Positions 44,206-47,200 of a stretch of DNA of 64,000 bases are shown here, one piece after another. This DNA comes from Flavobacterium lipolyticum (GTDB lineage: Bacteria > Bacteroidota > Bacteroidia > Flavobacteriales > Flavobacteriaceae): the NCBI RefSeq assembly GCF_020905335.1, contig NZ_JAJJMN010000001.1:1922001-1986000 (forward strand), in the 5' to 3' direction. The position numbers and the translations under genes are program-made. The notes beneath the pieces are model-generated. The model made no database searches, was not told the origin of the DNA, and saw nothing but the letters and a program-made list of their open reading frames with translations. Every line of letters begins with the position of its first letter. Within the stretch, counting starts at the first letter, position 1.

Positions 44206-44823
44206 TTATTTATTGTATAATGTATTGATAGTTTCGTTGTTATATTTTGTGCTTTCTTCCTTGCTAATGGTGCAAAGAAAAGCCTTGTAATCGTCGTTGA
44301 AAAATTCTACCCAGCCACAAAGAACCCTGTCGGCTTTATTTGTATTCAGAAGAATAGTAGAATAATTGGACATAAATTCGGTGTTAAAGGCATCAAATAT
44401 AAAGAAAGAATTTTCACTTTTCAGCTGATGGCGGATACTTATTTCGCCCAGACAAATATTTGGCAGAGTATAAACAAAAACTGCCGGACTTGGGAAGTAG
44501 TTTTCTTTGTCGGAAATAGATTCCTGATACTTAACATCGGTATCTAAACTTGAGGATTTGTTGGCCAGAACCAAGGCAATATTGTTTTCTTTTTCATCAG
44601 AAGTTATCGGACTCAAAAGCAATTCAGCTCCTAAAAAAGCAAGCTTGCTCAAAGCATCCATTTTGAAAAACTTTGGGTATTGCAGGTCAAAATTGCGATA
44701 AGCCTGTTTTGAGAAATCACCAAAATTCGTCGGTTCAATTTTGAATACCGAAGTCCCGTTCAAAACAATTTCGTTGTTTTCAATGGTGCAATAGGATTGT
44801 ATGTTAGTTTTGTTTGGATTCAT
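44206..44823 (-). CDS. Truncated ketosynthase-like protein (205 aa, N-terminal half only)
   Basis: Corresponds only to the N-terminal region of a KS fold: FKMDALSKLAFLGAELLL, NIALVLANKSSSLDTDVKYQ and FPSPAVFVYTLPNICLGEISIRHQLKSEN. The nucleophile Cys segment reads FFIFDAFNTEFMS, so there is no catalytic residue, and the C-terminal half is absent. Homologues of this size are found in other flexirubin clusters, so it is probably a real accessory protein rather than a fragment. It could be a structural or chain-binding partner for an ACP. Confidence 0.7.
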   Translation of the reverse strand: MNPNKTNIQSYCTIENNEIVLNGTSVFKIEPTNFGDFSKQAYRNFDLQYPKFFKMDALSKLAFLGAELLLSPITSDEKENNIALVLANKSSSLDTDVKYQESISDKENYFPSPAVFVYTLPNICLGEISIRHQLKSENSFFIFDAFNTEFMSNYSTILLNTNKADRVLCGWVEFFNDDYKAFLCTISKEESTKYNNETINTLYNK

Positions 44824-44917
44824 TGTTTTAATTTAACACTAATTGCACAAATTAGCACGAATTGATTTTGGGGTTAAATTACACTAATTAATCTGTGAAA
44901 ATTAGTGCAATTCGCGG
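44824..44917. repeat. Spacer with CGAATTG/CAATTCGCGG inverted words
   Basis: AATTAGCACGAATTG and AATTAGTGCAATTCGCGG flank the centre of this spacer in inverted and direct forms, the same word family as at 35.96 and 47.15 kb. No open frame here looks coding. Confidence 0.5.
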
Positions 44918-44989
44918 TTAATCATTTTTTACCTTTTCAAATATCACCGCCGTATTACAACCTCCGAATCCGGAAGCTGTTTTTAGGGA
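44918..44989 (-). pseudogene. Duplicated 3'-terminal fragment of the ketosynthase gene
   Basis: Translated on the minus strand, 44986 to 44918 gives LKTASGFGGCNTAVIFEKVK plus Asn-Asp and a stop. This is nearly identical to the last 20 residues of the intact KS gene ending at 45961 (same segment with Ile-Val swapped). The nucleotide match between the two copies is about 84% over about 60 bases by eye. No start or upstream KS sequence is attached: the 266-residue gene ends 6 bases before this fragment. Confidence 0.85.
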
Positions 44990-44994
44990 ATATA

Positions 44995-45795
44995 TTATCC
45001 TATTTCTTTTACTATGCTATTATATGTTTGTTCAATATCTGTCCAATTTGTTTTATTAACTGATTCTTGTTTTAGCATTTTGAATGCATTCCAAAAATCT
45101 TCTTTTCTTTCTTGATGTTCTTCAACTAACCTTTTTTTATCAATATGTATATTTTTAAAATCTTTAGATAATGCTAATTCAATTTGGTTGTCCATTTTAT
45201 TAAAAAAATCTTCTCCGAACAATTTAATTTCATTCACAAAATCATGGTAGTTCATTTCGCAGAAGCCATCTTTCACTGTCCATAAACTTATACCATTTTC
45301 TAAAGTATATTCAGCTTCCCAAATAATTTTTATTTGATCATTTTTTCTGAAGAAAAATAAATTCGGACCACCAATTAAGTGTGCTGAATCTAATGTTCTC
45401 TCATTAATCCACGAAAGTAATTTATAATATTCATCAAAATAAAAATCAGTATTCTCATTTTCATCTGTATCATGAATACTAAACCAATTTTCTGATTCAG
45501 TTTTAAACTTTTCTAAATCTTCAGTTAAAGAGTAAAATTTTTCAGGAATGCTTTCATTTATTTTTCCAAAAAGGTTAGTAAAATCCTCAATGAATCTGAC
45601 CAAATAATACTCATTATATGATGTTGATTTATTTCCAAAATAATAAATTGCTTCATCAGAATACTCGTAAATTATCTCATTTTCGAAATCAAGCCATAAC
45701 TCTCCATCTGTTAGCCAAAACCAACTTAAACGTTGATTTGGTTCTTGACCAATAGGAACTATTTCATCAATATATTTTAATTTGAAATTTATCAT
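44995..45795 (-). CDS. DUF5984-like protein inserted inside the pigment operon (266 aa)
   Basis: A soluble, acidic, aromatic-rich protein without signal or membrane segment: IDEIVPIGQEPNQRLSWFWLTDGELWLDFENEIIYEYSDE opens it. The W-x-LTDG segment resembles DUF5984 proteins, a family often found in contact-dependent toxin/immunity settings; I rate this family call as moderate. It is unlike every neighbour in the polyketide-type cluster, is very AT-rich, and is bounded by a duplicated KS end and a set of hairpins, all pointing to an inserted gene. Confidence 0.7.
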   Translation of the reverse strand: MINFKLKYIDEIVPIGQEPNQRLSWFWLTDGELWLDFENEIIYEYSDEAIYYFGNKSTSYNEYYLVRFIEDFTNLFGKINESIPEKFYSLTEDLEKFKTESENWFSIHDTDENENTDFYFDEYYKLLSWINERTLDSAHLIGGPNLFFFRKNDQIKIIWEAEYTLENGISLWTVKDGFCEMNYHDFVNEIKLFGEDFFNKMDNQIELALSKDFKNIHIDKKRLVEEHQERKEDFWNAFKMLKQESVNKTNWTDIEQTYNSIVKEIG

Positions 45796-45858
45796 TTTTA
45801 GAATTTAGATATAAATGACAATCATTTTTTTTCGATTTTCTATGAATTTTAAATATTG

Positions 45859-45959
45859 AACTTGTAAATTTTCTTTACAAGTTGGATCTTGAACTCTCAA
45901 GATTTCCTTGTTAGTTGGACTTTACTTTTGAACTGTTCGGAATTTCCGAATAGTTCAAA
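45859..45959. repeat. Three consecutive hairpins between the KS stop and the inserted gene
   Basis: AACTTGTAAA / TTTACAAGTT (45859-45868, 45874-45883, 5-base loop); ATCTTGA / TCAAGAT (45886-45892, 45897-45903, 4-base loop); TTTGAACTGTTCGGAA / TTCCGAATAGTTCAAA (45927-45942, 45944-45959, one G-T pair). The last ends 1 base from the KS stop codon. No long T-run follows on the minus strand, so simple termination is not the only reading. Confidence 0.8.
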
Positions 45960-45960
45960 T

Positions 45961-47100
45961 TTATTTTACTTTCTCAAAAACAATCGCCGTATTACAACCT
46001 CCAAATCCGGAAGCTGTTTTCAGGAAAAAATCAATTGTCTTTTCTTCCTTTTTCTCAATAACATTTATTGGTTCGCTAACCCCAATTTCATCAAAACCTT
46101 TTGATTCAAAAAGCTTATTTTGATTGGCAGATTCAATGGCAATTACGGTTTCTAACAATCCCGAAGCGCCTAAGGTATGACCGTAAAATCCTTTCAGACT
46201 ATTGACAGGAACATTTTGCAGACCTAAACGGTTTAGGGCAATGGCTTCCATTTCGTCGTTGAAAGGCGTTGCGGTTCCGTGTGCTGAAATATAATCGATT
46301 TTTGCAGCTTCAATTTGAGCTTCTTTCAAAGCATTTTGAATACTTCTGAACAAACCTTCACCGGTTCTCGATGGACCCGAAATATGATTGGCATCGTTTA
46401 TCGAACTGTCTCCGATAACTTTTATTTTGGCATTTGCAGTTTCGGCGGTAACTAACACTGCGGCTGTCGCTTCTCCCAAACTTACACCGGTTCTGTTTTT
46501 AGAATACGGTTTGCATGGTAAATCGCTCATAGCCTGAAATGCATTAAAACCGGACAAAACAAATTCTGAAACTTCGTCACCCGCCACAACAAAAGCATGG
46601 TCATAAAGACCTGACTGAATCATTCTTTTGGCAACAGAAATGGCTAAAATTCCGGATACACAGGCATTCGAAACCACAATGGGCGGTGTTTGAAATCCGA
46701 AAAAAACGGCAACATTTTTTGCCAAAACATCTAAATGTGCATTAGTAAAACTGTCAACAGAATCATTTTTTAAAGCCGTTACATTTCCTTTGGTTGTCGA
46801 AAGGATAAAGGCTGCTTTGGAATTTAGTTCAACTCCCGAGTTTTTGATAATCGGTTCTAAAGCCAAAATCATCATTTTCTCTAAACGGGAGTATTTTGTT
46901 TCTGTACTTATTTTTGCGAAGGCACTGTTTATTTTTTCATCAGAAATAATAGAAGCATAAAATGAATTGGGCATTAAAGAAATATCATTTTGAATCTGAA
47001 TACCGGAATCTCCTCGAAGAATTGCTTCAACGTTTGATTCGACATCAAAACCTAATGATGTGATGCAGTTGGTTTGCGTGATGTATATTTCTCTTAACAT
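45961..47100 (-). CDS. Beta-ketoacyl-ACP synthase
   Basis: A 379-residue KS with intact catalytic residues: VSNACVSGILAIS (Cys), SAHGTATPFND (His), KGFYGHTLGASGLLE (His) and the C-terminal KTASGFGGCNTA loop. An aryl polyene/flexirubin condensing enzyme. The 3' ~60 bases are duplicated about 1 kb downstream on the other side of an inserted gene, so its C-terminus may have been replaced by an incoming copy. Confidence 0.93.
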   Translation of the reverse strand: MLREIYITQTNCITSLGFDVESNVEAILRGDSGIQIQNDISLMPNSFYASIISDEKINSAFAKISTETKYSRLEKMMILALEPIIKNSGVELNSKAAFILSTTKGNVTALKNDSVDSFTNAHLDVLAKNVAVFFGFQTPPIVVSNACVSGILAISVAKRMIQSGLYDHAFVVAGDEVSEFVLSGFNAFQAMSDLPCKPYSKNRTGVSLGEATAAVLVTAETANAKIKVIGDSSINDANHISGPSRTGEGLFRSIQNALKEAQIEAAKIDYISAHGTATPFNDEMEAIALNRLGLQNVPVNSLKGFYGHTLGASGLLETVIAIESANQNKLFESKGFDEIGVSEPINVIEKKEEKTIDFFLKTASGFGGCNTAIVFEKVK

Positions 47101-47200
47101 TTTATGATTTTAATTTCGTGAAATTTTTGCTCGCAGATTTGGCAGATTGAGCAGATTCCGATTTTAATTTTTTCTAATTCGTGAATTCGTGGCTAAAACT
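47101..47200. repeat. Spacer with AATTCGTGGC and GCAGATT words
   Basis: TTTCGTGAAATTT, CGCAGATTTGGCAGATTGAGCAGATT and CTAATTCGTGAATTCGTGGC are variants of words found at 36.0, 40.7 and 44.9 kb. No gene is present. Confidence 0.5.

Follow-up and report, generated by a model that had tools for sequence, protein, structure and literature searches.

The immunity gene arrays of the type VI secretion system (T6SS) of Vibrio cholerae undergo sequential displacement, for which homology-facilitated illegitimate recombination has been proposed (PMC5361080), and chromosomal hotspots devoid of mobile elements are turned over via recombination in flanking core genes (PMC5635113). The present work concerns a comparable junction inside a pigment operon, examined in a stretch of 64,000 nucleotides from Flavobacterium lipolyticum (assembly GCF_020905335.1, contig NZ_JAJJMN010000001.1, positions 1,922,001 to 1,986,000; hereafter the window). 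In the window, a gene for a 266-residue protein of the DUF5984 family stands behind a ketosynthase (KS) gene and is followed by a second copy of the KS 3′ end and, further on, by a 205-residue KS-like gene (KSL). On balance, we find it probable that the KS|KSL junction is a recombination hotspot which collects single small genes, and that the gene in the window, probably an orphan immunity gene, entered by exchange within the KS end and within a copy of the KS tail, the joint between gene and tail having arisen earlier by homology-facilitated illegitimate recombination.

The parallel with the Vibrio T6SS arrays (PMC5361080) lies in a new gene standing behind a conserved anchor while the genes added earlier and the anchor's former 3′ end are pushed downstream, in one side being homologous and the other illegitimate, as proposed there, and in small cargo of the immunity type. 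The anchor described for Vibrio is a toxin gene that is displaced, whereas here it is a pigment-biosynthesis gene that stays intact, and the cargo here is mixed (lipoprotein-like, Fic, RhuM, DUF5984 and other proteins) and is found across a whole clade of species. Like the core-gene hotspots (PMC5635113), the junction is bordered by two conserved genes and has a high turnover of content, and no mobility gene was seen in it; those hotspots are described within species, whereas this one lies inside a single biosynthetic operon, acts across species, takes up one to four genes at a time and leaves readable tail remnants. Co-oriented, short and AT-rich genes, some of them immunity-like, are also features of rAID (PMC12247911), and the palindromes that stand alone in 30/116 loci (see below) may be a counterpart of its short conserved intergenic motifs, but no tyrosine recombinase was present among the 16 window proteins scanned (36–53 kb), and the inserts studied here mostly comprise one or two genes inside a pigment operon. 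We found no description of the KS|KSL junction in the pigment (flexirubin) literature, judged by titles among the matches listed.

All features of the locus are read on the minus strand, where the order given by the initial annotation was confirmed: an intact KS, hairpins, an unrelated 266-residue gene and a copy of the KS tail with its own stop. The KS gene (45961–47100) carries the Pfam ketoacyl-synt N and C domains, and comparison with the relatives described below marks its last 24 nt (45961–45984) as foreign and the rest as native. The leader between its stop and the DUF5984 start (45796–45960) holds the palindromic hairpin H1 (45930–45956; inverted repeat I7, arms 45927–45942 and 45944–45959, 94% complementary), the hairpin H2 (45859–45883; arms 45849–45868 and 45874–45893, 80% complementary), with 64 nt between its end and the DUF5984 start codon, and between the two hairpins a weaker, imperfect H2-like hairpin read by eye (45892–45916). 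The inserted gene (44995–45795), a probable immunity gene assigned from PF19446, its homologues and its predicted fold, is the only one of at least 60 amino acids on the operon strand of the insert, in which no mobility family was matched. Behind it lies the stranded KS 3′ end (44918–44990), which terminates in the native KS stop (TAA at 44918); from the 64-nt repeat and the match to F. tructae, its first approximately 20 nt are assigned as foreign and the sequence from about 44965 down as native. Then follow the native empty-site spacer (44824–44917; 94 nt, repeat-like, delimited by comparison with relatives), which has been kept behind the insert, and the KSL gene (44206–44823; from gene calls and locus comparison), which forms the right border of the hotspot. 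The duplication of the KS end, put at 84% identity by eye in the initial annotation, is real and was computed by a repeat search of the region as a direct repeat of 64 nt (44927–44990 versus 45964–46027) with 86% identity; it is not a product of chance, since the second-best direct repeat in the region spans just 33 nt at 73% identity. The copy had further been described as in-frame; its frame is indeed open, but by counting it differs from that of the DUF5984 gene.

The closest relatives found, Flavobacterium sp. UGB4466 (L031; KS 98.2% identical) and F. tructae CCUG 60100 (L032; 96.6%), both lack the DUF5984 gene, and in both a 94-nt spacer separates the KS from the 205-residue KS-like gene downstream, which is the order that had been anticipated for strains without the insert. 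Their KS 3′ ends are closer to the stranded copy than to the end of the intact gene, again as anticipated: the stranded copy matches F. tructae at 98.5% over 66 nt and UGB4466 at 94.2% over 69 nt, while the last 24 nt of the window KS differ from both, and therefore the insert brought a replacement KS end with it. When the intact window KS is aligned with that of F. tructae, positions −117 to −25 (93 nt) are identical, six substitutions fall between −24 and −10, and the stop differs; because the window equals F. tructae over the former stretch, the upstream limit of the import can be placed only to 25–117 nt from the KS end. The stranded copy, in turn, shows three differences from F. tructae near its start (973, 977 and 995 nt behind the KS stop) and none over the following 140 nt, which take in the native stop and the spacer. 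Judged from these alignments, the order of DNA in the window is native up to the KS tail, foreign through the KS end, the hairpins, the gene and the start of the tail copy, and native again inside that copy. The comparison thereby supports the earlier proposal of an insertion with a replacement 3′ end, in which the stranded remnant is the original end of the KS gene. Of the approximately 20 imported codons estimated there, the part that can be demonstrated amounts to 24 nt (eight codons with the stop).

Across the genus, the KS|KSL junction is a hotspot at which genes of many kinds have been taken up, the event in the window being one of many. We gathered 80 named KS loci (the best 80 of 345), 55 stretches from further genomes, eight further loci and the window; out of 155 genomes with a KS match, 102 were considered, 47 being skipped as the same loci, and 46 with a more distant KS were left out. 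Removal of L078, in which the contig ends, and of the duplicate L138 gave 142 distinct loci with both borders, divided into a clade set of 116 loci with KS identity of at least 77% and 26 more distant loci. The KS|KSL gap measures at least 400 nt in 97/116 clade loci, less than 150 nt in 15 and an intermediate length in four. KS and KSL abut or overlap in 24 of the 26 distant loci, the exceptions being L159 (116 nt) and L010 (564 nt, with two short open reading frames, ORFs). As a control, gaps of more than 400 nt were counted at seven other junctions of the cluster and occurred in 0/80, 0/80, 11/80 (thioesterase|KS), 0/116, 0/116, 0/108 and 0/71 loci. The thioesterase|KS junction (47101–47200 in the window) is thus a second, weaker place of insertion with small ORFs of its own, including a 171-aa family found in, for example, L040, L074, L081 and L096. 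The empty site of the clade, at 44824–44917 in the window and in other gaps, is a repeat-like spacer of the CACGAATTNCACTAATTTTCACGAATTAAT type; the 1.1 Mb of loci contain 59 copies of it at up to four substitutions, and 31 of these are at the KS|KSL junction. The spacer is missing in the more distant species, where KS and KSL overlap. A local duplication of another type is seen at the junction in L089 (gap of 168 nt), where the spacer together with the KSL start occurs twice in tandem.

ORFs of at least 60 aa in the 116 clade loci fell into 26 families, some of which are probably spurious short ORFs. The commonest, F0, is lipoprotein-like (44 ORFs in 43 loci), followed by the 178-aa family F2 (20), the 158-aa family F3 (13), the Fic protein F4 (PF02661; 11) and the RhuM protein F5 (PF13310; 11 ORFs in 10 loci), and singleton inserts include a GNAT acetyltransferase and a pentapeptide-repeat protein. 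The genes lie on the operon strand in 132/132 counted ORFs (median 203 aa; 22 short opposite-strand F1 ORFs were left out), and the inserted region has a G+C content of 26.9% against 35.6% for the KS, the insert being AT-richer than the KS in 97/97 loci. The first insert begins within 5 nt of the KS stop in 46/97 loci, and up to four inserts occur in tandem (L053), in an order that varies between loci. Matches to F0 at 55% identity or more were all located at the KS|KSL junction by coordinates, as read by eye among the matches listed (67 of 398 genomes gave any match); elsewhere in the genomes there was one match at 53% and many at 25–41%. F2 was present in 5/199 genomes, four times at the junction. 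No mobility-gene Pfam was matched in the 21 of 26 families scanned, the five others (F17, F20, F22, F24 and F27) being short or single. A PADLOC scan of nine junction proteins matched Fic and RhuM to candidate defense families and gave a weak Cas5b match for F15 (E = 9.6e-5), with no match for the remaining six, DUF5984 included. An opposite-strand ORF of 61–62 aa, elsewhere found beside Fic, stands alone without Fic in L034, L047, L048, L062, L067, L072, L077, L085, L092, L143 and L148, where it may be spurious or the remaining partner of a lost Fic gene.

Turnover at the junction was followed on a tree of the KS without its last 150 nt, built by a quick method, with the proviso that the KS may itself recombine. 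F0, present in 43 loci, requires 32 changes on this tree and F2, present in 20, requires 19; shuffled labels performed equally well or better in 14/60 cases for F0, 41/60 for F2, 3/60 for F3, 1/60 for F4 and 18/60 for F5. Gene content thus follows the KS tree hardly or not at all, although F3 and F4 keep some signal. In the control, 31 of 40 tested single-nucleotide polymorphisms of the neighboring KSL (145 candidates) beat all 40 shuffles. KS sequence tracks the type of the first insert at its very 3′ end only, where the last 30-nt window reached z = 10.3 (0/500 permutations; 86 loci) and, at finer resolution, the last 9-nt window reached z = 3.5 (5/1000 permutations; 85 anchored loci). No comparable link with the first insert was seen on the KSL side (81 loci; best z = 2.2). 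Long linked tracts of KS or KSL around the inserts were considered as a candidate and rejected, nothing being found beyond the last KS codons.

A KS-tail profile search of the gaps recovered the window (E = 8e-18), the genome G159 (locus L125; E = 7e-20), which we take to be, probably, F. johnsoniae UW101, and, weakly, L103 (E = 0.19); a fourth match, on the opposite strand with E = 0.75, is at chance level. In G159 the order is KS, DUF5984 (83% identical), KS tail and RhuM; its DUF5984 gene begins at the KS stop without hairpins, and the joint between DUF5984 and the KS tail has the same limit as in the window. Since a second species has this joint as well, gene and tail probably came into the window as one piece. 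L103 holds a decayed KS piece with a different left limit, situated between a RhuM gene and a Fic remnant. At E 1e-10, a DUF5984 match was obtained in 5/398 genomes of the genus, including the window genome and G159. The other three genes (L117, L118 and L119; 55–60% identical) lie away from the KS junction among other small genes, and in L119 a repeat-rich ORF of 1175 residues, Rhs/YD-like by eye, is located downstream. Copies of the insert gave no match in a plasmid collection.

The inserted protein matches PF19446 over residues 1–256 (E = 1.2e-65; 221.6 bits against a gathering cut-off of 23.8), and all of its 93 homologues belong to the same family. Its predicted fold is of high confidence (predicted local distance difference test, pLDDT, 92.5), with CdiI and other immunity proteins as best structural neighbors; the resemblance is weak, and Foldseek returned no match at E ≤ 0.001. 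Viral PHROGs profiles gave no match below E = 0.048, and our literature search found no article mentioning DUF5984. From the predicted fold together with orientation and position, DUF5984 is probably an orphan immunity gene that would be read from the pigment operon.

The empty site, the imported end and the stranded native end are all apparent from comparison with relatives. In the recombinational reading that we favor, the incoming DNA would have carried the hairpins and the DUF5984 gene between a KS end and a KS-tail copy, and would have undergone two exchanges with the resident KS end: the left one within the KS gene, where it would have replaced at least the last 24 nt, and the right one within the KS-tail copy, so as to strand the old KS end behind the new gene. 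The joint between DUF5984 and the KS tail would be older and probably stems from homology-facilitated illegitimate recombination, with KS homology on the left and a short-homology or non-homologous joint in the KS tail on the right. Given such a joint, the gene could pass to a new genome by ordinary recombination, for which KS would provide the homology on the left side and the KS tail that on the right, and the window looks like a secondary transfer of this type. The window and G159 have the limit of the right-side joint in common, and the limit of the L103 remnant differs from it. Three observations weigh against this reading: no donor was found, KS is linked to the insert over a very short stretch, and a KS-tail copy is missing from most inserts.

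Both exchanges would also fit within one 18-nt stretch, GGAGGTTGTAATACGGCG, whose codons are among the best conserved KS DNA (the FGGCNT window ranks 3 of 150), and the inserts lie right behind the KS stop in the proportion given above (46/97 first inserts). This would suit site-specific integration, in which a recombinase encoded at another locus inserts a small circular cassette whose attachment core is a KS end and so restores the gene, as islands that target tRNA gene ends do. Duplication of the KS end at both borders of the insert (64 nt, 86%) likewise recalls integrase-borne islands that restore a gene end; the window insert, unlike these, has no integrase gene, its sole gene of at least 60 aa on the operon strand being DUF5984. 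A dedicated attachment site was rejected as a candidate, as the FGGCNT block is conserved to the same degree in species without inserts (rank 3 of 53), and no KS-tail copy occurs in the other gaps searched. Exchange at GGAGGTTGTAATACGGCG, whether site-specific or through a circle, was rated lower because the L103 remnant has a different left limit, because the stretch is equally conserved without inserts and because no recombinase is found among the 16 window proteins, and we consider site-specific integration unlikely. If instead tandem KS ends released DUF5984 as a RecA-made circle, a single crossover into another KS end would leave the structure seen in the window, with native DNA to the left, foreign DNA in the middle and native DNA to the right meeting in the same stretch; however, linear donor DNA with two crossovers explains this structure as well, and circles are not visible in assembled genomes, which makes this route, in our estimation, quite unlikely.

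The initial annotation had also considered that a second, tandem KS was lost except for its end, and the copy is indeed KS-like and ends in a stop. No second KS was present in the gap of any of the 142 tabulated loci, where the largest insert has 334 aa and none is KS-like by family, and the copy equals the orthologous KS end of relatives that have a single KS here; loss of a tandem KS therefore appears extremely improbable. An assembly artefact might be suspected, the assembly being a draft of seven contigs, but the same joint is found base for base around the DUF5984 stop in G159, a one-contig genome, and the probability of an artefact is negligible.

The leader hairpins of the window correspond to palindromes within the RhuM gene found at the junction, in whose coding sequence they encode TVRNFRTVQ or STCKEILQVQ. 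H1 and H2 each occur once in the window genome at up to three mismatches, which rules out a genome-wide repeat family there. All 19 H1-like copies (20 with another center) and all 25 H2-like copies found in the 1.1 Mb of related loci at up to four substitutions are at the junction. Across 169 genomes, at no more than one mismatch, H1 and H2 were each found in six, in one place each, five of the six being at the junction by coordinates; three of the five junction copies of H2 and one of the five of H1 are inside a RhuM gene. Away from the junction, H2 lies in a RhuM gene (G169) and H1 outside any RhuM ORF seen (G162). Stand-alone H1/H2 palindromes occur in 30/116 loci and RhuM in 10, and the two sets do not overlap. 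Among stand-alone H2-like copies (up to six substitutions), 23/30 end 15–22 nt before the next annotated start codon, compared with 64 nt in the window. In 23 distinct copies, two of 11 pairs were changed on both sides (in 8 and 5 copies) and three pairs were broken in 5 to 14 copies.

Within RhuM-family (PF13310) genes the palindrome sits inside the ORF just before an NLDxIISVGYR motif, as examined in L051, L103, L125, L179–L235 and L237–L242; its sequence differs widely between genes, as do the encoded amino acids, yet it is usually palindromic. In 34 of 42 RhuM genes from 57 fetched loci, no more than 10 of 200 synonymous recodings equaled the palindrome, which thus exceeds the expectation from synonymous codons, the other eight being unexceptional; among plasmid RhuM genes from four phyla 6/7 behave likewise, the seventh having no recognizable motif. 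The structure prediction for RhuM (pLDDT 47.5) was too poor for use. Our literature search found nothing on the RhuM family together with an inverted repeat, and no description of a palindrome in RhuM genes, the latter judged by titles among the matches listed. Single, promoterless-looking genes in one orientation, with the newest beside the anchor and the order permuted, resemble integron cassettes, and one may ask whether the junction serves as a landing platform of integron type that lacks its own integrase. Cassettes would then be taken up downstream of the KS stop, and H1 and H2, the palindromes of RhuM type, would be sites at which a RhuM-family protein binds, regulates or moves them. 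No integron integrase was found among the proteins scanned, in which no integron-specific search was included, and the hairpins are missing in most loci; we regard such a platform as decidedly improbable. The RhuM palindrome nevertheless provides a handle on a widespread family of unknown function that PADLOC lists as a defense candidate.

In most species of the clade, the same gap in a conserved operon has been filled anew with differing single genes; no mobility gene is seen at its side, and a footprint of one such entry, rarely so legible, survives in the window. A probable second case is present in the genetically tractable F. johnsoniae UW101, where the entry of genes into such gaps, and a possible attraction by operon transcription, are open to direct test.
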